A DNA stretch of 64,000 bases from an uncultured Bacillota bacterium (lineage in GTDB: Bacteria > Bacillota > Clostridia > Christensenellales > UBA1242), in assembly GCA_949283975.1 (NCBI GenBank), contig CASDUK010000003.1, positions 62,001 through 126,000 of the forward strand, in the 5' to 3' direction. Both the position numbers and the translations under genes were made by a program. Positions 6,203 through 47,961 of the stretch are shown here, piece by piece (within the stretch, counting starts at the first letter, position 1; each line of letters starts with the position of its first letter). The notes beneath the pieces were generated by a model that was not told the DNA's origin, ran no database searches, and worked only from the letters and a program-made list of their open reading frames with translations.

Positions 6203-9200
6203 TTAGAAAAGTGATTTAACTAAATTTCTAATTGTTTCATCTGTTGTTTTTGAATCTATTGCGGCCGAAATTTCTTCAAAGCTTAGCGAACTTGAAATTG
6301 CAACGCCAGAAGCAATTGCGCGCTGAAGAACAAGAGTTGCTCCGTTGCAAAGGTCTGACAGAGATTCATTTAAATTCTCGCTGCTAATTCCTGTTTCAAT
6401 TAAAAGGCTAATTCTGCTGCTAACAACTTGTTCTTTTTGTATGTAAGATAGATCCACAGAAGATGAAATGTCCTTTCCAATTGCAGATTGAACAATTTCA
6501 ACAATTTCACCTGCATTTTCCTCTGTTATATTTCCAAGAGAGGTTGAAAGGTCTTCAAAAGATTGAGAAGATGAACCATCAACATTTGCAAACGAATTTT
6601 GAACGTCCGAAATTTTGTTAGATGTTTCCTCGCTTGCGCCAACAACCTCCAAAGCATCTCCAACATCAACGCCAGATTCTGGGTCTGCTAAGATATCTAA
6701 GATATTTCCGCCACCCGAAAGGCTTGAAAGTTTTTGTGCTGTTTTTAAGAAGTTAATCCATTCAATCTCGCCATATGAAACATCTCCAGAGAAGGAGTAT
6801 GATTGTTTTGCATAGTCTATCATTGCAATGTAAAGCTCTGCAAAAATTCCACCGTTTTCAACTGTTTTTCCATCTGAACTTAAAACACAATTTGGATTTG
6901 GAGTTCCGTTTGAATAGTCATAGGCGTTTTCTTTTAAAGAATTTAGGAAAGAGCCAACCTTTTCAATTTCTTCGTCTGTCATGTTTCCAAGGTCGAAGTT
7001 CTCACCTGTTAAAATTTCAAAACAATCTGCCAACTTTTCAAGAATTACAACAATGTCCTCCTCTTGGTCTTCTGTTAACCTATCTAAATCAATTGGAGAA
7101 ATTGAAACAACATTTTCTTCTGACGAAATTTGTTCTCCAACGCTTTCGTTTAGAGTGTTAATTAGATAGACTAGAGTTTGTTTTAAAATTTTGCTGTCGT
7201 AAAGATTGTTAATCATAATCCTAATTGAAGAGGACTCTGGAAGAGTTTCATAGAGCGGAAGTTTTAGGTTGTTGAAAATTTTTGAAATTAGTTCGTTTGT
7301 TATTTCAACAGAGCCAAGTTCCCCCGTTGGGAAAAGAAGGTTAGCAACGGACTGTCCGTTATTTTCTTTTTCAAAAATTGAAAGCAAAACATTTATAATT
7401 TCAAATTCTTCCTCCCAACTGAAATCTTCGCTAGCAGCTTCGCCAAGAGTCAGATATTGGTTGAATTCTTCGTTGTTTTGAGCGGCTTGGAAAATTGAAT
7501 TATAAGTTGGGCGCAAGATTGAAATTTTTGAAAGAGGGTTGATTATGTTTACGATATAATCTGAGTTAACTCCTCCGTTTAAAGACGGATCGTTTAAAGC
7601 AAGAATTGTTGAGAGAGTGTCGCCTGTAAAGCCTTCAAAACCAAATTCAACAACCATAACAACAAAACCATCAAACAAGTTTGTAATTTCTTCTTTGTCT
7701 GCCGCGCTTAGGTATGTGAAGTTTGAAAGATCAATGTTTTCAACCTCTTGGCCAATTTTTTCTCGAAGTGTGTCCATATTTTCGTTTGCAAGCTCAAGCG
7801 CATATTTAACTGGTTTTTGAGAAAGCCTTGAATCTAGAAGCGGTTTTAAAACTTCTCTAACATAAGTTTGATTTTCCAAGCTTTCTTCGTTTATAAGAAG
7901 CGTGCAAATTTCTGTTATATCCAGTTCGTTATTTATTGCATAGTCTAAAATTCCTTGCTCTTTAAGAACTGTTAGAGAAGGTTTTATTTGATTGATTTCA
8001 TCTTCCCAATTTAATGATTTTAAAAGCGGGGCGTCTAAAAGTTCGTTAAAGGGCTCTTTTAAAACAACATAGTCAACAAGTTGATTATACGCGTTAATGT
8101 CTTGTGAAACAAACAATGGGCTTGATTTTAAAAGTTCAAGTTCGCTTCCAACAAGTGAGATTAAAGCGTTGAAATCCTCTGTTGAAAAACTGTTTGAGAA
8201 AACATTTTCAATGTTGTTTTGGTCAATTCCGTTTCTATCTAAGATTAAATAGCCATCAACTGCGTTTCTTAAAAGAGAATTGAGCGAAGAATTTGCCAAA
8301 GCCCAGTCTATTTTGTTTTGGTCTAAATCTCCAAGATAGAGTTCGTCATTTGTTTGGTCTTGAACAACCTCAAAACCAACATTTAAGCCGCCTGTTAAAA
8401 TACATTTTAAAGTATAGGACGAAGTTACATTTTCTGTTAAAGAGTTTATTAATTTATAGTCTTGTGCGGCCAAAGAATTTATAAAAGTTGAAACATCTCT
8501 TTCTCCCCCAACCCAGCTGTCAACAAGGCCAACTTGGCAGGCAGCTTGGCAGATTTTTAAAATTGAAGAAAGGTCGCTTTTAAGAGTGTTAACAAAGCCA
8601 GATTTTGAAGATTTTAAGCCTTCAACAACGTTGTCTAGCGCCGCTTTAACTTCTTGGTTGTATTCAAAGTTTACAAAAGTTTCTGAATCATAAACAAAAG
8701 TTAAAGCATATGGAACGGCCTCTTCTGCAAGAACGCGAACAATTCCCATATCTAAAACAGTGTTTAAAATTTTTTCAATTTTGTCAAAGTTAACATTTTT
8801 GTAATTTTCGCTTGCGCCAATTTCGTCAACCAAAAACACATATTCATCATAAACTTTTGTTAAATTTAAAACATCTTTTCTAAAAGCAAAATTTTCGTTG
8901 TTTACAGAAACAGAGGTTAATGCATCAAATATTACATCGTCAAACCCGCCAAGCGTTAACATTTTTCCAGGAACACTTTGGCTAAATGCATCTACATATG
9001 AAATTGTTTCCTCTCCCAAATAATATTTTAACAAATCGGAGCTTGTTTCGCTTAAAAATTCGCTATCACTCTCTGCACTAACAACTGGAGAAGAAGGAGA
9101 CGCTGCAATTTCGGAAATTGTTGAAGTTAGAGAACTTATTGGAACAAAAAGGCAGAAGATAAACAAAAACCCAAAAACAAGGCCAACGGCCGAGCCAAGC

Positions 9201-26977: not shown

Positions 26978-29032
26978 ATGGAAATCAAAAGAAAAAGAAT
27001 AATTTTAACAATTTTTTGTTTATTTTTTGTTTTATGCGCAGCGCTTTTGTTTTGCGCCTGTTCGCCCAGGGGTGAACAACCCTCCGCCGACCCGGGTTTC
27101 CAAGAGGAAATCCCACAAAATCCAAGCGAAGAAGATGAACCAGATATGCCAGAAAACCCGAGCGGAAGCGAAGACCAAGGTGAAAGCGAAAAGCCGGGCG
27201 AAGATGAAAACCTAGGAGAAAGCGAAGACCCGGGCGAAGTTGAAAACCCAGGCGGAAGCGAAAAGCCGAGCGAAGATGAAAACCCAGGCGAAAGCGAAGA
27301 CCCGGGCGAAGTTGAAAACCCAGGCGGAAGCGAAAAGCCGAGCGAAGATGAAAACCCAGGCGAAAGCGAAGACCCAGGTGATGACGGAAACCCAGGAGAA
27401 ATTGAAAAACCAGGCGAAGTTGAAGACCCAGGCGAAGACGAAGAACCGGGAGATGACGAAACTCAAAATCCGCCAGAAGAAGACAAGCCAATCGGCTCAG
27501 ATAAACCAGCAGAGGAAGACCCCTTGCCCGAAGAGCAGCCAGAGATTATTTATGAAAAAGAAGAAACAATTTCTCTTGCAAACAACGGCATAGGCTTTGT
27601 TCTAGAGCCCTTTTTAGACGGAGATTTTTTGTTTATAGTCGAAAACGAAGAGGTTGCAACTGCTCTGCCCTACTTTGAAAGCGCAATTACGCTTTATCCG
27701 GTTTCGGTTGGAGAAACGAAATTAACAGTTAAAATTTCAACCGAAGAAAAAATTTGGATTAAAGTTTATAACATAATTGTTCTTCCTTTTGACAAAAATT
27801 TAAACATTGAAATTGAAGGCTTGGAAGAAAATGAACTTAAAGGTGGAACAAGGGCGGATGGAAGCTATTTACTTTACAATGCAAGTGTAGTTTCTTGTCG
27901 AAATTTGGCGACTGAGGATTTTTTTATAGAAAAATCTGATAATATCATTATCGTGGAAAATTCAATTGTTTCATCTAAAACGGAAAATGGCGGAACGAAA
28001 CTTTCGTTTTCTTTCTATGTTTTGGGCGGACAAGAGGCAAACATTAAAGTTTATTTTGAAAATAATTTTGCAAACCTTTTAGCGCCAACCGAAGCCCAAG
28101 AAACATTTGTTGTTTCTGAATTTTTAAAAGAAATTTCATATGAGTTGACAAACGAAGGAATTTCCCCAATTAAAGGGGAGAACGGTTTTAAGTTATATCT
28201 TCCAACAATTGGTTTTGAGGACGAAATGGACGGGGCTGGCTATTTCACATATTACAATTTGACAATAGACAAAGCGCTCTTTTCTGTTTCAACAATGTCA
28301 TCAAACATTGAAATTATTGAAAATGAAGAAGGGTTTGTAATTTGCTCAAAGGAAGAAGGAACGGCGCTTGTTGTAATTTCGGCAAACGACGGCTCTAACC
28401 TAACAGAAAATTTTATTATTGAAACCGCCCCGCTCCTTGCAACAGAATATGTTGTTTCTATGGGCGGAGAAGAAACCATTTTCACGCCAGAAGACTTTTG
28501 TTATTATTTGCTTGGGCTAGAATCTTTTGAAATGAGCAAAGATGGAGACCCCTTTGTTTTGCAAATTTTACAAAACCCAATTTACAGCAAGACAGAATAT
28601 CAAATTGTTGTTGCAAGCGGAAGTTCTGTTAAGTTGATTTATGAGCCGGTTGGCGGAGTTGCGAAATTATCCTTTGTTCCTGTTGAAAAGGGAAAAACAG
28701 ATTTTAACATTCTTTACAACGGCAAAACAATTTCATCTTTCACGGTTGAGGTTAAAGAGAAAGAATATGAAATTTTAATAGAAAACATTGAAGATGAAAA
28801 CGAAATAAAAGTTGGAAGTTTTATTGAACTTAATTTATCTCTAACCCGTAATGGAGTTGAGATTATTAGGGCGCAGTTTGAAATAATTTGCAATCAAAGC
28901 GGCGTTATTTTTGACAATTTTGCATATAACGGAACGGCTTTTATTGAGTTTCAAAAACCAGGCGACTTTTATTTTACCATTACAGCAAGCGATTATGGCG
29001 TTAGTCGAACCATAAAATTTATTGTTGTCTAA
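26978..29032 (+). CDS. surface lipoprotein with acidic Pro/Gly/Glu repeat and Ig-like beta domains
   Basis: The 684 residues start with a lipoprotein signal (LLFCAC, lipidated Cys at about residue 28). Residues about 35-190 are a highly acidic low-complexity spacer built of units such as GESEDPGEV and PGGSEKPSEDEN, including an exact 24-residue tandem repeat. The rest (190-684) is beta-rich without a named family: repeated segments such as PVSVGETKLTVKIS, ENEIKVGSFIELNLSLTRNG resemble bacterial Ig-like surface domains. The spacer probably holds the domains away from the membrane (inference). There is no ribosome binding site; mnmE follows 9 nt after the stop, so readthrough into mnmE is possible. 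Confidence 0.7.
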   Translation: MEIKRKRIILTIFCLFFVLCAALLFCACSPRGEQPSADPGFQEEIPQNPSEEDEPDMPENPSGSEDQGESEKPGEDENLGESEDPGEVENPGGSEKPSEDENPGESEDPGEVENPGGSEKPSEDENPGESEDPGDDGNPGEIEKPGEVEDPGEDEEPGDDETQNPPEEDKPIGSDKPAEEDPLPEEQPEIIYEKEETISLANNGIGFVLEPFLDGDFLFIVENEEVATALPYFESAITLYPVSVGETKLTVKISTEEKIWIKVYNIIVLPFDKNLNIEIEGLEENELKGGTRADGSYLLYNASVVSCRNLATEDFFIEKSDNIIIVENSIVSSKTENGGTKLSFSFYVLGGQEANIKVYFENNFANLLAPTEAQETFVVSEFLKEISYELTNEGISPIKGENGFKLYLPTIGFEDEMDGAGYFTYYNLTIDKALFSVSTMSSNIEIIENEEGFVICSKEEGTALVVISANDGSNLTENFIIETAPLLATEYVVSMGGEETIFTPEDFCYYLLGLESFEMSKDGDPFVLQILQNPIYSKTEYQIVVASGSSVKLIYEPVGGVAKLSFVPVEKGKTDFNILYNGKTISSFTVEVKEKEYEILIENIEDENEIKVGSFIELNLSLTRNGVEIIRAQFEIICNQSGVIFDNFAYNGTAFIEFQKPGDFYFTITASDYGVSRTIKFIVV
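27231..27374 (+). repeat. 72-bp exact tandem repeat in lipoprotein spacer
   Basis: Two 72-bp units (27231-27302 and 27303-27374) are identical or nearly so and keep the reading frame (24 residues each). Degenerate relatives continue on both sides. Such in-frame repeats usually vary in copy number between strains. Confidence 0.8.
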
Positions 29033-37897: not shown

Positions 37898-40150
37898 ATG
37901 AGCCTAAAAATAAAAATTTCAATTCTTGCAATTTGCTTTGCGCTTCTTGCCGCCGTTTGCGTTGGCTTTGCCTTTGCCGCTCCAAGCGAAAAATTAAACT
38001 TAAAGGGAACTTTAAGTTATGAGGTTGCAAAGGCAACAATTTCGGTTTCGCCAAATATTTCAACTTTGGGTTCAACAACCGGCTCTGGCTCAACAACCGG
38101 CTCTAGCTCGGGAACTGGTTCTGGCGAATACGCAATTGGCGAAACGATAACCCTAACCGCAACGCCGTCCGGCTCTAATAGTAGCTTCCTCGCTTGGGCA
38201 ACTTCAACAGACCCAAACGAAATGGAAATTCTCTCAATTTCTCCAACATATTCCTTTAAGCTCTCAAAAGATTCCCCAACAACTTACTTTGCTCTCTTTA
38301 ACGAAACAACATCAGAGCAAACAGTTGGGGAGTTAAAATACACAATCTATGAAGATGCAGAATTTGCAGCAGTAACGGACACAACTTCAACAGAGCTTTC
38401 AAGCGCTGAAATTCTTCCTGAAGTTCAAAATGAAAACAACTCTTACAAAGTTTTCTTAGTTGGCAGTTCTGCTTTCCGTAGTTGCAGCTGGTTAACCTCA
38501 ATTACAATCCCAGAAGGAATAAGGGTAATTGGCGAGGAGGCTTTTTATGTTTGCAGCCGTTTAACCTCGGTGTCTCTTCCAAGCACATTAACAGAAATTG
38601 GCGAACGGGCTTTTGCCGCAACTGGCTTAACTTCAATAATAATTCCAGATGGGGTTACTTCAATTGGCAGTTCTGCGTTCGAATTCTGCGGAGATTTAAC
38701 CTCAGTTTCAATCCCAGAAGGCGTAACCTCAATTGGCGATAGGGCTTTCTATTATTGCAGAAGGTTAACCTCAGTAACTCTTCCAACCACATTGACATCA
38801 ATTGGCAATTATGCGTTCGAATACTGCGAAGATTTAACCTCAGTTTCAATTCCAGAAGGAATTAGGGTAATTGGCAATTCTGCTTTCTCTCATTGCAGCA
38901 GTTTAACCTCGGTGTCTCTTCCAAGCACATTAACAGAAATTGGCAATCGGGCTTTCCAAAATTGCTACAGCTTAACCTCAATAACGATTCCAGGAGGCGT
39001 AACCGAAATTGGTGAGTATGCTTTCGTCCAATGCAGCGGTTTAACCGAAATTACAATCCAAGAGGGAATGACAGAAATTGGTTATTCTGTCTTCCAAGCT
39101 TGCAGCAGTTTAACCTCTGTAACACTGCCAAACACGTTAACTTCAATTGACATATGGGCTTTCGCCCAATGCAGTAGTTTAACCGAAATTACAATTCCAG
39201 AGGGCGTAACCAAAATTGGCGAATGGGCTTTTTATAGTTGCTACAATTTAGCTTCGGTAAACCTTCCAAAAACGTTAACCTCAATTGGATATTTGGCTTT
39301 TTCTTCTTGCGTCAGTTTAACCGAAATTACAATTCCAGAGGGCGTAACCGAAATTGGCACAGGGGCTGTCGGTGCCTTTGTTGAAGCTGGCGCTTTCTCT
39401 GGATGCTATGCGCTGGTTATAGTGTATAACAATTCAAGTTTAAATATAACGGCAGGTTCTACTGAAAATGGTTGTGTTGGACTTTATGCAAAGGAAATTG
39501 TAAAAAAAGGGGGAACTCTACAGGGAAAAATCGAAATTGACGGAGGCGTTCAATATTATGTAAACGGAGCAGCAAATATTGCCCTTGGGCCTTTAGGTTT
39601 TAGAGGTTCTCTAACAAGCGTAAAAATTAGAAACGAGGCAACTGAAATAAGGCCAGGAGCTTTCGCTTTCTGCAGCAATTTAACCTCAATTACAATCCCA
39701 GAAGGAATAACTTCAATTGGCGATGATACCTTCAACAGTTGCACCAGTTTAACCGAAATTAAAATCCCAGAAAGTGTAACCTCAATTGGCGCGGGTGCTT
39801 TCTCTGCTTGCTATAATTTAAGTTCAATAACGATCCCAGAAAAAGTAACAAAAATTGACACTTTTGCTTTCGCGAATTGCGACAATTTAACTTCAATTAC
39901 GATTGACGGAAATATTGCAAGTTTGGAGTCTGATGCTTTTTATAATTGCGACAAGTTAACTTCGTTAACGCTGGGAAAAGATGTTTCAACCCTTCCAAGC
40001 AATCTGTTTGACGCGTTAACACACCTAACCGAAATTGAAGTTCTTGGGAGTTTAAATTCAACAACTTTCCCAAGCGGAACTTGGTATAAGGACGGAGAGG
40101 AAGTTACAAGTTTTGACGGCGAGGGAACTTACACAAGGACGGATGTTTAG
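37898..40150 (+). CDS. BspA-type leucine-rich-repeat surface protein
   Basis: The 750 residues start with a signal peptide (IKISILAICFALLAAVCVGF). A Ser/Thr/Gly-rich linker (GSTTGSGSTTGSSSGTGS) and a short beta domain (GETITLTATPSGSNSSFLAW) precede about 20 BspA/LRR_5 repeats of 23 residues with the pattern ITIPEGVTSIGDRAFYYC. Such repeats occur in host-adhesion and fibronectin-binding proteins of oral and gut bacteria and in Trichomonas. No LPXTG, membrane anchor or other wall-binding module is visible at the C-terminus, so the way it is retained is unclear. The start has a GGAAGGGAG site. The upstream poly-G promoter suggests on/off switching. Confidence 0.9.
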   Translation: MSLKIKISILAICFALLAAVCVGFAFAAPSEKLNLKGTLSYEVAKATISVSPNISTLGSTTGSGSTTGSSSGTGSGEYAIGETITLTATPSGSNSSFLAWATSTDPNEMEILSISPTYSFKLSKDSPTTYFALFNETTSEQTVGELKYTIYEDAEFAAVTDTTSTELSSAEILPEVQNENNSYKVFLVGSSAFRSCSWLTSITIPEGIRVIGEEAFYVCSRLTSVSLPSTLTEIGERAFAATGLTSIIIPDGVTSIGSSAFEFCGDLTSVSIPEGVTSIGDRAFYYCRRLTSVTLPTTLTSIGNYAFEYCEDLTSVSIPEGIRVIGNSAFSHCSSLTSVSLPSTLTEIGNRAFQNCYSLTSITIPGGVTEIGEYAFVQCSGLTEITIQEGMTEIGYSVFQACSSLTSVTLPNTLTSIDIWAFAQCSSLTEITIPEGVTKIGEWAFYSCYNLASVNLPKTLTSIGYLAFSSCVSLTEITIPEGVTEIGTGAVGAFVEAGAFSGCYALVIVYNNSSLNITAGSTENGCVGLYAKEIVKKGGTLQGKIEIDGGVQYYVNGAANIALGPLGFRGSLTSVKIRNEATEIRPGAFAFCSNLTSITIPEGITSIGDDTFNSCTSLTEIKIPESVTSIGAGAFSACYNLSSITIPEKVTKIDTFAFANCDNLTSITIDGNIASLESDAFYNCDKLTSLTLGKDVSTLPSNLFDALTHLTEIEVLGSLNSTTFPSGTWYKDGEEVTSFDGEGTYTRTDV

Positions 40151-42299: not shown

Positions 42300-42570
42300 C
42301 GCTGCACAATTGCTTCGAAAATTTTGCCATGCGAGCCACAGTTAGCGCTGGCTCCATTAAAGCTTCCTTAAATCACTTGCTTTAATCTGCTTAATGATGC
42401 TCCCGTCAGGGCCTGACATGGTTCACAGCAAAACAATGTTTAAGACCTTAATTTCAACACCAAGCTAAAAGTTCGTTCCACAAAGCAGAAACTCCCTCAA
42501 ACAACTAGTTCAGCCTTGCTATAGCGGATTGCAAGTTCAGGGCACCGCTAGCTCCCCGCCTAGTGCAGCA
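42300..42570 (-). ncRNA. ffs: signal recognition particle RNA, large Gram-positive type
   Basis: The minus strand matches the Bacillus-type SRP RNA (scRNA) over its full length of about 270 nt. The 5' Alu domain reads GCACTAGGCGGGGAGCTAGC and then GGTGCCCTGAAC, TTGCAATCCGCTATAGCA. Domain IV reads GTGAACCATGTCAGG, CCC, UGAC, GGG, AGCA, so its apical tetraloop is UGAC (URRC type) in place of GGAA. The ends pair (TGCTGCAC with GTGCAGCG). With Ffh it targets membrane and secreted proteins. Exact 3' end is uncertain by several bases. Confidence 0.93.
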
Positions 42571-42575
42571 AAAGG

Positions 42576-42604
42576 ATTATATCACAAAACAAAATTAAAA
42601 TCAA
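42576..42604 (-). promoter_or_regulatory. promoter of the SRP RNA
   Basis: On the minus strand TTGATT (42599-42604), 17 bp, TATAAT (42576-42581), 7 nt before the RNA 5' end. Confidence 0.75.
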
Positions 42605-42655
42605 ATGTTTAAAGCAGCAAAAGCCGCTCCTGCCAGGCAATTAAAATTAATTAGT

Positions 42656-42748
42656 AAAATTTTTGTCATAAATCTTGAATATATAAAAACTATATGATAA
42701 CTTAATGTTTAATTTAGTCTACAAGTTTTATAAATAACCTTTTGTTTT
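42656..42748. repeat. 93-bp dispersed direct repeat, copy 1
   Basis: This AT-rich stretch is nearly identical (one 1-nt gap and one substitution) to 45321-45414, directly upstream of the TerS-like gene of the tRNA-Lys element. It runs from AAAATTTTTGTCAT to CCTTTTGTTTT. Neither copy encodes a protein. Confidence 0.85.
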
Positions 42749-42787
42749 GTGTTTTAAGCTTGAAGTCAAATTGTTAGCAGAAAGGGC

Positions 42788-42848
42788 ATCTGGTTATTGC
42801 GTTAATTGGTGCTGGGCGAAACTCGGCGCTACAAGCAATAAAACCCAT
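42788..42848. other. GC-rich hairpin region, possible structured RNA
   Basis: GGTTATTGC (42792-42800) can pair with GCAATAAAACC (42835-42845, two-base bulge), and GCTGGG pairs with CTCGGC around a CGAAA loop inside. The local G+C is much higher than in the flanks. No known riboswitch or ncRNA class is recognised. Confidence 0.35.
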
Positions 42849-42941
42849 AGGAATCATTTGACATAAAGGCCTTAAATATATTATCATTCAATAAAACCCA
42901 CAGAAACTATTTGACATAAAGGCCTTAAATATATTATCATT
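42836..42941 (+). repeat. 53-bp tandem duplication carrying a promoter
   Basis: Two copies (42836-42888 and 42889-42941), about 92% identical, each contain TTGACA followed 15 nt later by TATTAT. The downstream gene at 42964 therefore has a duplicated promoter-like segment. Confidence 0.8.
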
Positions 42942-42963
42942 AAAACAGAAAGTGGAGGAATTT

Positions 42964-43464
42964 ATGAAATTTTTAGGTTGGCTTTTTAGCGTTACAAGCA
43001 GGCACTATAGAGATATGCGAAGATATGAAAGAGGGGGTGTTGGCGCAAGAATTTTTGCGATAATTCTTTCAATGCTTTTTGTTGGGGCTGCGCTTGGGCT
43101 TGAATATTGGTTTTTTTCATCGCTCATGACAGAGGGGTCGCTTGGCGGCGGAACTGCAAAATTTGTTGCTCTAATTTTCATTGGCATTTTCTTTGTTGCA
43201 ACTTTTATTACAGCGCTTGAATATTGTGGCGTTTATGCCTTTACTGCTTTTGCAATGGCGATTATGGGTGTGGTTTATAAGGCAGAAAAAAGAAAGGCAT
43301 TGCTTGAAAAAAATCAAAAGAAAATTGAAAATTTGGAAGCTGAACTTGAAACAACTCCAAGCTTAAAATATAAAAAACTTGACATATTTGTTGGAATTTT
43401 TCAAATACTACTTGCAGTTGGGCTTTTTGTCGGCGTTATTGCTGTTGCAGTTTTAACGCTTTAA
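42964..43464 (+). CDS. four-helix membrane protein with C-terminal charged segment
   Basis: The start is ATG 42964 with GGAGG 5 nt upstream; the in-frame GTG at 42952 would cover that site. The 166-residue product has membrane helices at about 27-50, 62-85, 85-110 and 142-164 and a Lys/Glu coiled segment (RKALLEKNQKKIENLEAELE) between the third and fourth. It is not a family I know. Its upstream region holds a duplicated promoter-like segment and the hairpin region. Confidence 0.6.
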   Translation: MKFLGWLFSVTSRHYRDMRRYERGGVGARIFAIILSMLFVGAALGLEYWFFSSLMTEGSLGGGTAKFVALIFIGIFFVATFITALEYCGVYAFTAFAMAIMGVVYKAEKRKALLEKNQKKIENLEAELETTPSLKYKKLDIFVGIFQILLAVGLFVGVIAVAVLTL

Positions 43465-43584
43465 TTGACGAAAGCTCGCCTAAATTATTTGGAGTTTTGT
43501 AACTTTTATGATATATATTTTTTAGTTATATGTTGCATTTTTCACAAACAACCCTTTCTATTTCGTATAAAAAAAGGAGGATCT

Positions 43585-44958
43585 ATGAAAAAGAAAATTT
43601 TAATATTTGTCATGGCTTTTGCAATTATTTTCCCAGCGGCTTTTCTTTTAAGCGCGTGCGACGGGAAAGGCGGGAAAAAAGTTCAATCAATAACTGTTGA
43701 CAATCTTTTCATTGGCGACTCTCTCGAGGGCGACTCTGTCGAGTATGAGTATGGAACCAACATTAACGACATCTTTTCTCTTGAAAACATGAAAGTCACC
43801 GCAATCTATGATGACAATTCTACAAAGGTTCTAAGTTCTGATGAATACACCGTTGAGTTTAGCAAAAATACAAACCCAATAGATGAAATTAAAAGCATTC
43901 CAGATGTTGGTTATTATGGAATTTCTGTTTTCTACGAAGGGGCTTTTGACGGCATTACTTTTACTGTAATCCCGAGCAGCACACCTTATTATTCAATTTC
44001 ACTGTCTCATAAATCTTGGACTTATGGCAACGATGATATACCAGAGGTTACTTTAAAAAATTATCAGTTGCAAGAAGGCGAAAGCGTTGATTATTATTAC
44101 ATCGAAAAATCCAACTATGACGCCTTGAGCGACGAAGAAAAAGAACTTGCTAATAGATATGCAAATTATTGGACAGATATTACAGACGGAAATACAACAC
44201 TTGATGCTGGGCAATATTATGTGTTTGCATACATCAATTTTGCAAATGAACCAAATTATACAAGGCTTACAGTGAGAGAGCTAATTACAGTCAATAAAAA
44301 ACGAATTGTTGTTACACAAGAGGATGCAGCTGGAGTTTCGGCATGGGAATTTGATTATAGCAATTCTTACAACACTTCTTCTGACGGCAAATATATTATT
44401 GGAGACATCGCTTTAAAAAATATCACATTAGACGGCAATCATGTAACTATTTCTGACATTGCAGGTCGTTTTGAATGGAAAAATCCTGAACAAACTTTAA
44501 ATTCTTCTAATAGCGGCGATTCCTATCCACTTGTTTTTATTCCTTACGATTCAAATAATTACGAGGTGGTTTACAGCGGAGGTGAAATAAAATTGCAGGT
44601 TACCATTGAAAAGGGAGTTATTGACAATAAAAACACCCTTGACATTTACTTTGCAGAATATTTTGAAAGTGAGGCTAAAACAATAGCATATGATGGAAAG
44701 CAACACAGCCTTTTGCTTGATAGTTTTGAGATATTCGATGCTGGTGGCGTTTTGAAAAATATTGTAACATTTACACAAAACGGGGAAAATGCTGTTGTTC
44801 GCGAAGAAACTCCGGAAGGTGGAGTAACAGCCTATTATATTGATGGGCTTGTAGAAAGAGGACAATACATTTTTACTGTTAGCATAGTAGATGCAACAAA
44901 CTATTGTTGGGAGGGCGGCGACACCGCGCCAGCAACATTCACAGTAACAATAGAATAA
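43585..44958 (+). CDS. lipoprotein with Ig-like (Big_3/MBG-type) repeats
   Basis: The start at 43585 (AAGGAGGATCT site) gives a lipoprotein signal ending LLSAC (Cys about residue 24) and 457 residues. A first domain (ITVDNLFIGDSLEGDSVEYE, AIYDDNSTKVLSS) resembles Big_3-type bacterial Ig domains. Further segments such as LSHKSWTYGNDDIPEVTLKN and ITVNKKRIVVTQ resemble the MBG-type repeats of Firmicute surface lipoproteins, and a final segment contains YDGKQHSLLLDSF. They are typically adhesive or structural; no enzyme motif is seen. It is followed by a terminator. Confidence 0.7.
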   Translation: MKKKILIFVMAFAIIFPAAFLLSACDGKGGKKVQSITVDNLFIGDSLEGDSVEYEYGTNINDIFSLENMKVTAIYDDNSTKVLSSDEYTVEFSKNTNPIDEIKSIPDVGYYGISVFYEGAFDGITFTVIPSSTPYYSISLSHKSWTYGNDDIPEVTLKNYQLQEGESVDYYYIEKSNYDALSDEEKELANRYANYWTDITDGNTTLDAGQYYVFAYINFANEPNYTRLTVRELITVNKKRIVVTQEDAAGVSAWEFDYSNSYNTSSDGKYIIGDIALKNITLDGNHVTISDIAGRFEWKNPEQTLNSSNSGDSYPLVFIPYDSNNYEVVYSGGEIKLQVTIEKGVIDNKNTLDIYFAEYFESEAKTIAYDGKQHSLLLDSFEIFDAGGVLKNIVTFTQNGENAVVREETPEGGVTAYYIDGLVERGQYIFTVSIVDATNYCWEGGDTAPATFTVTIE

Positions 44959-45062: not shown

Positions 45063-45132
45063 TAAAAAAGCCCCTTTTTGGGGGTTTTGGTGAACCGCCG
45101 GGGGATCGAACCCCGGACCCACAGATTAAGAG
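45063..45132. repeat. attL-like 70-bp direct repeat (tRNA-Lys 3' fragment)
   Basis: This segment is identical to 47861-47930 and contains the tRNA-Lys terminator and the 3' half of the tRNA up to the anticodon loop. The 5' half of the tRNA is missing here, as expected at the displaced end of an element integrated into the tRNA gene. Confidence 0.9.
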
Positions 45133-45247
45133 AAAATGATAAAGTATTTTAAAATGATTTAATTTTTACCTTTTAAAGCCTTTATTCCCCTTTATTTATA
45201 AGACAATTAGAGTTTAAACCATTCTCTTTTGTTTTATCTTGTTTTGC

Positions 45248-45287
45248 CTAATTTTATTAGGCATTATTTTGTTTTCTATTAGGCAAT
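45248..45287. repeat. inverted repeat cluster near the left end of the element
   Basis: TGCCTAAT and ATTAGGCA form an 8-bp inverted repeat with a TTT loop, and a third TATTAGGCAA follows about 20 bp later. Such small iterated sites near an attachment end resemble integrase or excisionase arm sites, but that is inference. Confidence 0.4.
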
Positions 45288-45320
45288 TGATTTACAGGTA
45301 AACTTTTTTCTATAAATAGC

Positions 45321-45414
45321 AAAATTTTTGTCATTAAATCTTGAATATATAAAAACTATATGATAACTTAATGTTTAATTTAGTCTACAAGTTTTATAAA
45401 TAGCCTTTTGTTTT
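45321..45414. repeat. 94-bp dispersed direct repeat, copy 2
   Basis: The partner of 42656-42748. It ends 13 nt before the TerS-like start codon, so it is the immediate upstream region of the element's operon. Promoter-like TTGAAT and TATAAA sequences lie inside. Confidence 0.85.
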
Positions 45415-45427
45415 ATAAGGAGAAATT

Positions 45428-45847
45428 ATGGATAAATGGCAAAAAGAAATGGTTGAACGAAATCAAAAAAATGCTTTAGAAATAGAAGAAAACAATAATG
45501 AGATATTACAAATTCCAAACTATTTAACCGATGAAGAAAAGAAAGCTTATGAAGAAATTGTGGGCTCATTAAAAGAAAGCATAAAGTATAGGCTTTCTCA
45601 TTCAGATGTTGAATTAATTTGGCAATATTGTCAAATTAAAATTATGAGAGATAGAGCATGGAAAGGATACAACAAAAATCCAGAAAGATATATAAGAATT
45701 GTGACTGGGATTTGTAGCGACGGAAAAACACCTAAGGTTATGGTTAAAGAAAATGAACACTATAAAACTTTGATTGATTGCAATAAACAACTTGAAAAGA
45801 TTTTAAAAGATTTAAGACTTACACCAGAAGCAAGGAGAAAAAGATAA
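45428..45847 (+). CDS. P27-family phage terminase small subunit-like protein
   Basis: The 139 residues match the P27 family of small terminase subunits (TerS), which recognise phage packaging sites. Support: the sequence YLTDEEKKAYEEIVGSL, the helical middle and the C-terminal pattern ENEHYKTLIDCNKQLEK, then LKDLRLTPEARRKR, a strongly conserved end in this family. An AAGGAG site is 5 nt before the ATG. It is first in the element, and its stop overlaps the start of the ParB-like gene by 1 nt. No large subunit (TerL) is present, so it could only act with a helper phage. Confidence 0.7.
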   Translation: MDKWQKEMVERNQKNALEIEENNNEILQIPNYLTDEEKKAYEEIVGSLKESIKYRLSHSDVELIWQYCQIKIMRDRAWKGYNKNPERYIRIVTGICSDGKTPKVMVKENEHYKTLIDCNKQLEKILKDLRLTPEARRKR

Positions 45848-46389
45848 TGGAAGATTTAAAAATAGAATATATTGAAATTGAAAAATTAAATCACTATGCA
45901 AACAATTCAAAAATTCACACAAAAGAACAAATTGAACATATTGTAAACTCTATTCAAGAATTTGGCTTTAATGACCCACTTGGTATTGCTGGAGAAAATA
46001 ATATTGTTTTGGAAGGAAATGGCAGAGTTGAAGCTGCAAAGAAGTTAGGTTTAAAAACATTGCCCTGTGTTAGACTTGACCATCTTTCCAAAGAAGAACA
46101 AGAAGCATATGTAATAGCACACAATGCCACAAATCTCGAAACGGGTTTTGATGACGGAATTTTATTTCAAGAATTAAAGAAACTACAAAACTTTGATTTT
46201 ACGCAATATGGAATTGATGTTGATAAATATCTTAAAACTTGTGTAAAAGTTCAAAAAAGGATATTAAAACCTTTAAAAAGTGTCCACTATTTGATAAGTT
46301 TAGATATAAACAAAAATGATGAAGTTTTAAAAGTTATTGACAAATTAAGAAATATAGAAGGAGTTGAAATTGAGTCGACAATCAACTAA
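45847..46389 (+). CDS. ParB/Srx-fold nuclease-domain protein, phage type
   Basis: The first 110 residues are a ParB-like (Srx-fold) domain: LNHYANNSKIHTKEQIEHIV, then FGFNDPLGI and the phosphate-binding GNGRVEAAKKLG (about 57-68). The C-terminal 70 residues (VHYLISLDINKNDEVLKVI) form a second small domain. Such proteins are common in phages next to methyltransferase or terminase genes and are not chromosome-partitioning proteins; no helix-turn-helix is present. The start ATG overlaps the TerS stop, and the next gene starts inside its last codons. Confidence 0.8.
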   Translation: MEDLKIEYIEIEKLNHYANNSKIHTKEQIEHIVNSIQEFGFNDPLGIAGENNIVLEGNGRVEAAKKLGLKTLPCVRLDHLSKEEQEAYVIAHNATNLETGFDDGILFQELKKLQNFDFTQYGIDVDKYLKTCVKVQKRILKPLKSVHYLISLDINKNDEVLKVIDKLRNIEGVEIESTIN

Positions 46390-46918
46390 AACAGATAATA
46401 AATCAATTGCAAATAAAATATTTATTCGCAAAGAAGCTATAAAAAACTTAAACGAAGTTAAAGTTTTAGATTTATTTGCTGGCAGAAATGTTTTGTGGAA
46501 TAATATCAAAACTGATAAGTATTTTGGAATTGAAATTGAAAAAAATAAAGGAAAAAATTTAAATGTTGATGTTAGAAAAGTTTTTGACAATTTAGATTTA
46601 AGTGCTTTCAATGTGATTGATTGTGATAGTTATGGTTTGCCTTTTGACTTAATGAAAAAGATTTTAACAAGACAAGATGTAAATAAAGGAACAATAGTGT
46701 TTTACACGGCAATATCCTATCAATTCACTGGACTTCAAAAAGAAATTAAAGATTACATAGGTTTTAAAAACTTTTATCACAAAGCACCAACACTTTTTAA
46801 TGAAAAAGGTATTGAATTTTTTTATGAATATTTAGCAAATTTAGGTGTAAAAGAAGTTATTTACTATTCAGTTCACGATCCGATTGACAAACATTATGGA
46901 TATTTTGTCATAAATTAG
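46370..46918 (+). CDS. SAM-dependent methyltransferase-like protein
   Basis: The chosen start is the TTG at 46370-46372 with AGAAGGAG 6 nt upstream, overlapping the ParB-like gene by 20 nt. The 182 residues show a class I methyltransferase motif I (VLDLFAGRNVLW, in place of the usual DxFxGxG) and a motif II acidic turn (YFGIEIEKNK). VIDCDSYGLPFDLMKK is in the position of motif IV, but no NPPY or DPPY is present, so DNA amino-methyltransferase activity is doubtful. It may be a non-catalytic or different methyltransferase. The coupled gene order with a ParB-like protein is frequent in phages. Confidence 0.6.
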   Translation: MSRQSTKTDNKSIANKIFIRKEAIKNLNEVKVLDLFAGRNVLWNNIKTDKYFGIEIEKNKGKNLNVDVRKVFDNLDLSAFNVIDCDSYGLPFDLMKKILTRQDVNKGTIVFYTAISYQFTGLQKEIKDYIGFKNFYHKAPTLFNEKGIEFFYEYLANLGVKEVIYYSVHDPIDKHYGYFVIN

Positions 46919-46954
46919 TAGTCAAACCCTATCTTTATGTGCTATCATCATTTT

Positions 46955-47776
46955 ATGAGTGTTATTTATAGACCGAAAGGAATGGCGAGAGAATATAGCC
47001 CGTATGCACTGAATGTTTACATAGGTTGCAGTCATAGATGTAAGTATTGCTATGCTCCACACACTTTGCAAAGGCGTGGAGATGAATATTTTGGTAAGCC
47101 TGAGCCGAGAAAAAATATTTTAACTGAACTTGAAAAAGATTTGAAGAAAAATGTTTACACCGAACAGGTTTTACTATCTTTTGTCGGCGATTGCTATTGC
47201 GATTCGGCAGATAGTGGAGAAACCACGAGAGAAGTTTTGAAAATGCTGAATGCCTATCATGTTCCTGTTGCAGTTCTATCAAAAGGTGGCAAGAAAATGC
47301 TTCGAGATTTAGATATTTTTAAAGAGTTTGGCAGCCGCATAACAGTAGGCACAACTCTCACATTTTTAGATGAGAAAAAGTCAAAAGAGTGGGAACCTTT
47401 TGCGTCCACTCCAAGCGAAAGACTGGAAACGCTAAAAATCTTGCACGAGAATGGTATCAAAACTTTTGCTTCTTTTGAGCCGACTATTGAACCAGAAGAA
47501 AGTTTGGCGCTCATTCGAAAAACGCTGGAAGACAACTCCGTCGACCACTATAAAATCGGCAAAATTAATAACTATCGTTCTGCTGATAAGTGGCAAGACT
47601 GGGCAAAATATCTTGAAGATTGTGTGAAACTGCTTCGTCCAACAGGAAAGCAAGTCTATTACAAATTTTGTCTGCGAAAACTTGCACCAAACATCTCACT
47701 TTTGCCACAAGAGAAAAATCCAGACGAATATATTGTCAGGTATATTCCACCACAGCAGTCAAATTTGTTTGGATAA
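46955..47776 (+). CDS. radical SAM protein, spore photolyase-like / DUF5131-type
   Basis: The start at 46955 is preferred over the ATG six codons upstream because a TATCAT box ends 6 nt before it (possible leaderless transcript); no ribosome binding site is seen. The 273 residues contain the radical-SAM cluster motif CSHRCKYCYAP (CxxxCxxC) near residue 26. LSFVGDCYCDSADSGETTRE is the SAM-binding glycine-rich region. The sequence resembles the SplB-like family often found in phages and plasmids beside terminase genes. Its reaction is unknown. It closes the element; attR begins 84 nt after the stop. Confidence 0.8.
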   Translation: MSVIYRPKGMAREYSPYALNVYIGCSHRCKYCYAPHTLQRRGDEYFGKPEPRKNILTELEKDLKKNVYTEQVLLSFVGDCYCDSADSGETTREVLKMLNAYHVPVAVLSKGGKKMLRDLDIFKEFGSRITVGTTLTFLDEKKSKEWEPFASTPSERLETLKILHENGIKTFASFEPTIEPEESLALIRKTLEDNSVDHYKIGKINNYRSADKWQDWAKYLEDCVKLLRPTGKQVYYKFCLRKLAPNISLLPQEKNPDEYIVRYIPPQQSNLFG

Positions 47777-47860
47777 TAAATTTAGAGGACAGAAAACAAC
47801 ACAAAGCACCGCCTGAAGAGAAAATAGTTATGGCTTTATTCAAAAAATTTTATGTAAAAT

Positions 47861-47930
47861 TAAAAAAGCCCCTTTTTGGGGGTTTTGGTGAACCGCCGGG
47901 GGATCGAACCCCGGACCCACAGATTAAGAG
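47861..47930. repeat. attR-like 70-bp direct repeat (part of intact tRNA-Lys)
   Basis: Identical to 45063-45132. It contains the terminator and 3' half of the intact tRNA-Lys gene, which the element restored on integration. Confidence 0.9.
47862..47882 (-). terminator. terminator of tRNA-Lys
   Basis: On the minus strand CCCCC and GGGGC around AAAAA are flanked by an A-run and a T6-run. The same hairpin is duplicated in attL. Confidence 0.75.
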
Positions 47931-47961
47931 TCTGTTGCTCTACCAGCTGAGCTAGCGGTCC
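47886..47961 (-). tRNA. tRNA-Lys (CTT)
   Basis: The 76-nt tRNA has acceptor GGACCGC/GCGGTTC (one G-U), discriminator A, encoded CCA, D-arm TAGCTCAGCTGGTAGAGCA and anticodon loop CTCTTAA with anticodon CTT. Its 3' half, from the anticodon loop onwards, is duplicated at 45063-45132, marking the tRNA as an integration site. Confidence 0.96.

Follow-up and report, generated by a model that had tools for sequence, protein, structure and literature searches.

The 64,000-nucleotide stretch of DNA analysed here (the window) carries two identical 70-bp repeats, at 45063–45132 and 47861–47930, which extend to 74 bp with one mismatch and flank 2.8 kb exactly as the original prediction had described. Among non-adjacent copies, this pair is the longest exact repeat of the window; it is exceeded in length only by the near-tandem direct repeat (86 bp, exact) at 27218 and 27290. 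Between the 70-bp repeats lie four intact co-directional open reading frames, for a terminase small subunit (TerS), a ParB-like protein, a 184-aa protein (p184) and a radical SAM protein. The features of the locus are:

43585–44958, plus strand: lipoprotein-like gene left of attL, absent at the corresponding site of genome G004
45063–45132, unstranded: attL, displaced 3′ half of tRNA-Lys plus terminator, exact copy of 47861–47930
45234–45294, unstranded: putative integrase arm-type sites, TGCCTAA / TTAGGCA, three copies, a motif that L071 and L072 carry at either end
45313–45414, plus strand: promoter-like region 5′ of TerS, a leader 82–85% conserved in related elements
45428–45847, plus strand: TerS, P27/HK97-type terminase small subunit, 139 aa (Pfam Terminase_4, PHROG 83, structure model)
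45847–46389, plus strand: ParB/Srx-like N-terminal domain protein, 180 aa (PHROG 620, 1.1e-39)
46364–46918, plus strand: p184, predicted class I SAM-methyltransferase-fold protein, 184 aa (AlphaFold model)
46955–47776, plus strand: radical SAM protein, PA0069-like (Pfam Radical_SAM, 4e-12)
47777–47856, unstranded: right junction, ~80 bp, putative deletion joint, no match to L069, L071, L072 or L098
47861–47930, unstranded: attR, 70-bp exact repeat
47886–47961, minus strand: tRNA-Lys (CTT), integration target (ARAGORN, Rfam RF00005)

G-numbers denote genomes and L-numbers loci; all genomes are metagenome assemblies, and some contigs end inside elements. ARAGORN and Rfam concur on the tRNA-Lys(CTT) gene and bear out the expectation that one repeat completes it while the other is only its 3′ half: the 47861–47930 copy forms the 3′ half of the gene, with the break in the anticodon loop, and the 45063–45132 copy is that half alone, displaced. 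Both copies include the hairpin terminator 3′ of the tRNA. The attL junction, between GATTAAGAG and AAAATGATAA, is common to the window and six related loci (L069, L071, L072, L073, L074 and L098). A search for an empty site, proposed together with the original prediction, led to G004, a genome of the same genus whose left flank matches window positions 42501–43495 at 93% and whose tRNA and right flank match at 95%. Between these flanks lie 305 bp in G004 versus ~4.4 kb in the window genome, and the site has neither the island nor the lipoprotein-like gene. We regard the G004 locus as an unoccupied orthologous site, not as the exact pre-integration sequence, because its 305 bp differ. The repeats and the unoccupied site support site-specific integration at tRNA-Lys as originally claimed, and the 2.8-kb interval is a real integrated element.

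The locus may have a longer history. In the window, as in G020, G035 and L088, the repeats extend past the tRNA and take in terminator sequence, which is most simply read as serial integration: the tRNA terminator would itself descend from a previous element of this family. A ~100-bp copy of the TerS leader (45313–45414) lies at chromosomal positions 42648–42748 (96% identity, 68 bp exact), is also found in G004, and is probably what remains of an older element, or the product of conversion from it. The lipoprotein-like gene may have arrived as cargo of a previous element; in L074 and L033, too, lipoprotein genes adjoin tRNA-Lys elements. Leader copy and lipoprotein gene both fit a locus occupied more than once. 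Just left of the leader copy is a bacterial large SRP RNA gene (42302–42568, minus strand; Rfam RF01854, 156.7 bits), and an array of degenerate repeats with a 69-bp period occupies 38458–39921.

The window TerS matches Pfam Terminase_4 above cut-off (E 1.5e-6) and PHROG 83 (2.2e-9), and misses the NCBIfam P27 cut-off. HK97 TerS supplied the top two entries for its structure model, with middling Z-scores of 7.3 and 7.1; the former corresponds to an rmsd of 3.3 over 93 residues, with a Foldseek E that is not significant. Profile and fold both place the protein in the P27/HK97 TerS family. The AlphaFold model of p184 (pLDDT 79) matches class I methyltransferases and predicts that fold, and a phage homologue of p184 weakly matches Pfam TRM (Trm1 family, E 0.003); PDB sequence searches with TerS and p184 were empty. 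A PADLOC match of the ParB-like protein to a type II methyltransferase was rejected, as it covers the shared ParB domain only. The radical SAM protein scores 1.2e-23 against NCBIfam rSAM_PA0069, under the cut-off. The claim of a P27-type TerS at the head of a compact operon has held up in the Terminase_4 and PHROG 83 matches and the four co-directional frames, and no integrase or capsid gene is present among the open reading frames of the interval, again as anticipated; TerL is likewise absent there. Nor does the window copy contain a MobL relaxase, a primase or replication module, or recognised capsid or packaging interference genes.

Full elements with this cassette, 7.8–15.8 kb long and equipped with xis and int, occupy tRNA-Lys in related Clostridia. 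In L072, a 45-bp tRNA-Lys repeat spans 7785 bp; the integrase of this otherwise complete element (6566–7905) is split by a frameshift or an assembly error. L071 runs attL, TerS, ParB, p184, radical SAM, three unknown genes, xis, int (443 aa) and tRNA-Lys, and its 136-, 361- and 279-aa proteins belong to no recognised family. In L098, an RHH gene and a MobL relaxase (Pfam 1.7e-23) stand ahead of xis-int, and in G349 the same gene order reaches tRNA-Lys over ~15.8 kb (MobL 94%, int 97% identical); in L082 and L083, MobL, xis and int directly precede TerS. No TerL or capsid genes were present among the open reading frames inspected in complete elements, and no conjugation apparatus was noticed among those read in G349 and L098. 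Thus, G349 and L098 unite xis, int and MobL in one element, the window copy has neither int nor MobL, and the encoded integrase typical of PICIs is absent in the window and present in L071 and G349. On their gene content, the complete relatives count as integrative mobilizable elements (IMEs) by the integrase-plus-relaxase definition, with TerS aboard. We found no paper in open-access text that describes an element combining integrase, relaxase and phage TerS.

How does the window copy relate to these elements? Several features bear on this question: (i) its left end (~295 bp) is 82–85% identical to L069, L071, L072, L073, L074 and L098; (ii) its TerS-to-radical-SAM block is collinear with the complete relatives; (iii) 3′ of the radical SAM gene, ~80 bp without counterpart lead directly to attR; and (iv) TTAGGCA/TGCCTAA motifs, which may be integrase arm sites, occur at both ends in L071 and L072 and at the left end only in the window. 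The window copy is most likely a deletion derivative of a larger mobile island: the interval is probably the left end of a 7.8–15.8-kb tRNA-Lys element that lost its right part, with a packaging or interference function that we infer. The ancestral order would have been attL, TerS, ParB, p184, radical SAM, variable cargo, with or without RHH-MobL, xis, int and attR. Deletion would have taken the span from just 3′ of the radical SAM gene to just inside attR and, with it, int and the right-arm sites, so that the island could not excise itself. No integrase stub is left in the window, and the deletion is therefore deduced from synteny. The tRNA-Lys islands of G020 (3.66 kb) and G035 (4.3 kb) do keep integrase C-terminal stubs adjoining the tRNA, and loss is therefore the observed direction in siblings. 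The G035 island, considered as a TerS sibling, was rejected, as it holds lipoproteins and the integrase stub without TerS. The only tyrosine recombinase encoded in the window genome (G000) has 351 aa and is probably Xer; serine resolvases are absent. L071 and L072 carry a 67-bp arm repeat 3′ of the radical SAM gene, which is compatible too with cargo gain by an ancestral unit of smaller size. Of the minimal satellite originally proposed, the own TerS and the lack of an integrase stand; its completeness does not, since the cassette, 90–97% identical, is the left end of elements of 7.8–15.8 kb.

The search for the same four genes elsewhere, also suggested at the outset, was productive. A TerS profile was positive in 26 of 309 genomes of the same GTDB family, and in public genomes the cassette occurs at ~35 loci, nearly all in uncultured Clostridia, many of them compact, integrase-free and beside tRNAs. 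At almost all loci, TerS heads a series of ParB, a variable third protein and one and the same radical SAM protein; p184 fills the third position, or its place is taken by a DUF4417 domain that forms a fusion with ParB, and another version carries DUF488 and GNAT proteins with a different ParB. Within the family, every p184 gene adjoins TerS, bar one at a contig start. The Terminase_1 TerL profile (PF03354) was over cut-off in only 7 of the 309 genomes and under it in all 28 cassette genomes, the window's included; by this profile, the window island has its own TerS without TerL, as PICIs do. Integrase-free TerS islands are a recurrent kind of object because several others exist, with direct repeats: L078 (3.66 kb), L088 (3.25 kb, tRNA-Trp) and L097 (2.6 kb, tRNA-Met). 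Other intact cassettes, such as L075 and L100, have neither attachment repeats nor integrase. An apparent integrase beside the L089 cassette was dropped for want of Pfam support. In L094 and L097, 3′ of the cassette, the TerS leader recurs ahead of the following gene, in direct repeats of 137 bp and ~130 bp, which looks as though later cargo uses the TerS promoter as well. Defence genes adjoin two cassettes: AbiLi/AbiLii-like in L077 (13064–15014) and OLD/HEC-01-like in L086 (8013–9814).

The cassette proteins are 90–97% identical to those of related elements, and ParB and p184 are 96–98% identical to those of L069 and L071, whereas LeuS is only 50% identical to that of the window in the L069 genome and 43% in the L071 genome; therefore, the cassette moved horizontally. 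Compared with L069, L071, L073 and L075, dN/dS was 0.08–0.125 for TerS, 0.025–0.07 for ParB, 0.03–0.10 for p184 and 0.03–0.05 for the radical SAM gene, and stops were absent from all four genes. The four genes are thus under strong purifying selection, which may predate the deletion.

Where does the cassette come from and what could it do? Dulem virus 36, a tailed phage, has ParB, p184 and radical SAM genes in this same order a short way ahead of TerL, and such genes also lie beside TerL in the viral contigs L107 and L111; in G021, a true prophage of the family, a P27 TerS (27% identical) precedes TerL and portal. These neighbourhoods point to phage-derived packaging-neighbourhood DNA that exists today without TerL. 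The window TerS itself had no profile match in 2.9 million viral contigs and no match in 50,697 phage records (INPHARED) or in PLSDB plasmids. In L107, an apparent S-adenosylmethionine synthetase gene, read by eye, lies between the radical SAM and ParB genes (957–1787), which suggests that the module consumes SAM. We infer that the cassette is a module for hijacking or interfering with helper-phage packaging, carried on integrative mobilizable elements. Hijack is the leading idea because in SaPIs the island TerS directs packaging with helper machinery (PMC8494744); interference with an infecting phage is close behind. TerS of a complete element would redirect the TerL of a helper to element DNA, or block helper packaging; ParB and the methyltransferase and radical SAM proteins would bind or modify DNA, and the relaxase would open a further, conjugative route to a complete element. 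If the window copy keeps its cassette at all, this is probably because of interference with infecting phages. In a survey of ParB-CTPases, fusions with DUF4417 and methyltransferases were over-represented in prophages, where they perhaps serve anti-defence (PMC12704722). We identified no helper phage for the cassette. A 12.6-kb insert at the same tRNA-Lys in G015, of a related genus, was rejected as a helper for TerS: it is an inovirus-like prophage with a Zot-like protein and an integrase (L034, G015:C7, 3922–16623).

Low dN/dS would also be expected if the cassette were a domesticated chromosomal anti-phage operon, kept by the host to interfere with packaging or to mark phage DNA, its mobility being irrelevant. 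The intact cassettes without attachment repeats or integrase (L075, L100), the two beside AbiL-like or OLD-like genes (L077, L086) and the pairing of ParB with alternative enzymes (p184, DUF4417, GNAT), which resembles arms-race diversification, agree with such a role. However, TerS, p184 and the radical SAM protein match no PADLOC model, the cassette sits on mobile elements in close relatives, and satellites commonly have defence neighbours too, so we hold this reading possible but on the unlikely side. Less probable still is that elements with both a relaxase and a phage TerS travel by conjugation and transduction, with integrase-free derivatives of 2.5–4 kb moved in trans; were this true, such derivatives would be the smallest TerS satellites known.

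The 2.8-kb unit could be complete in itself, a functional ultra-small satellite whose excision relies on an integrase supplied in trans and whose packaging by a helper runs via the satellite's own TerS. Compact TerS islands that lack an integrase and have direct repeats at tRNAs of different genera (L078, L088, L097) and an intact, horizontally spread cassette speak for such a unit, which we nevertheless consider very unlikely: arm-like sites are absent from the right end, G000 offers one Xer-sized tyrosine recombinase and no serine resolvase, complete relatives with int occupy the same site, and PICMI115, described as the smallest satellite with characterised activity, needs its own int (PMC10803314). 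A decayed tailed prophage stripped of TerL, capsid and tail genes, to which the TerL-linked genes of Dulem virus 36, L107 and L111 and the G021 TerS might have pointed, is largely refuted and equally improbable, as TerL (PF03354) is missing from the 28 cassette genomes, TerS is unmatched among the viral contigs and phage records, and the genes, which a prophage remnant would have shown only within complete prophages, occur in complete elements without TerL or capsid.

The deletion derivative and its complete relatives resemble PICIs and SaPIs in tRNA or site-specific integration, in an own TerS without TerL, in int and TerS at opposite ends of complete relatives and, presumably, in helper dependence; they differ in having no primase and no recognised capsid-remodelling or Ppi gene, in the MobL relaxase of some complete relatives and in the 2.8-kb, int-less window copy, typical satellites measuring 6–18 kb (PMC10803314; PMC11389934). 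PICMIs of Vibrionaceae are likewise very small satellite-like islands without capsid remodelling genes, but have int, AlpA and primase and no TerS (PMC10803314), whereas the present elements do have TerS and showed no primase. Phage ParB-CTPase fusion modules, enriched in prophages, share the ParB fold fused to DUF4417 or accompanied by methyltransferases (PMC12704722), but here the module follows an orphan TerS on non-phage integrative elements, a linkage of TerS, ParB and DNA-modifying enzymes with a testable function. Like IMEs and iMOBs, G349 and L098 have int, xis and a relaxase at a tRNA, with no conjugation apparatus noticed; unlike them, they carry a phage TerS cassette, and in the window copy int and any relaxase are gone. 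Phage satellites and mobilizable elements are as a rule classed apart, with terminases or cos/pac sites taken to mark phages and relaxases to mark conjugation (PMC11389934); the distinction becomes less sharp when integrative elements of uncultured gut Clostridia that bear a relaxase also carry a conserved TerS cassette.
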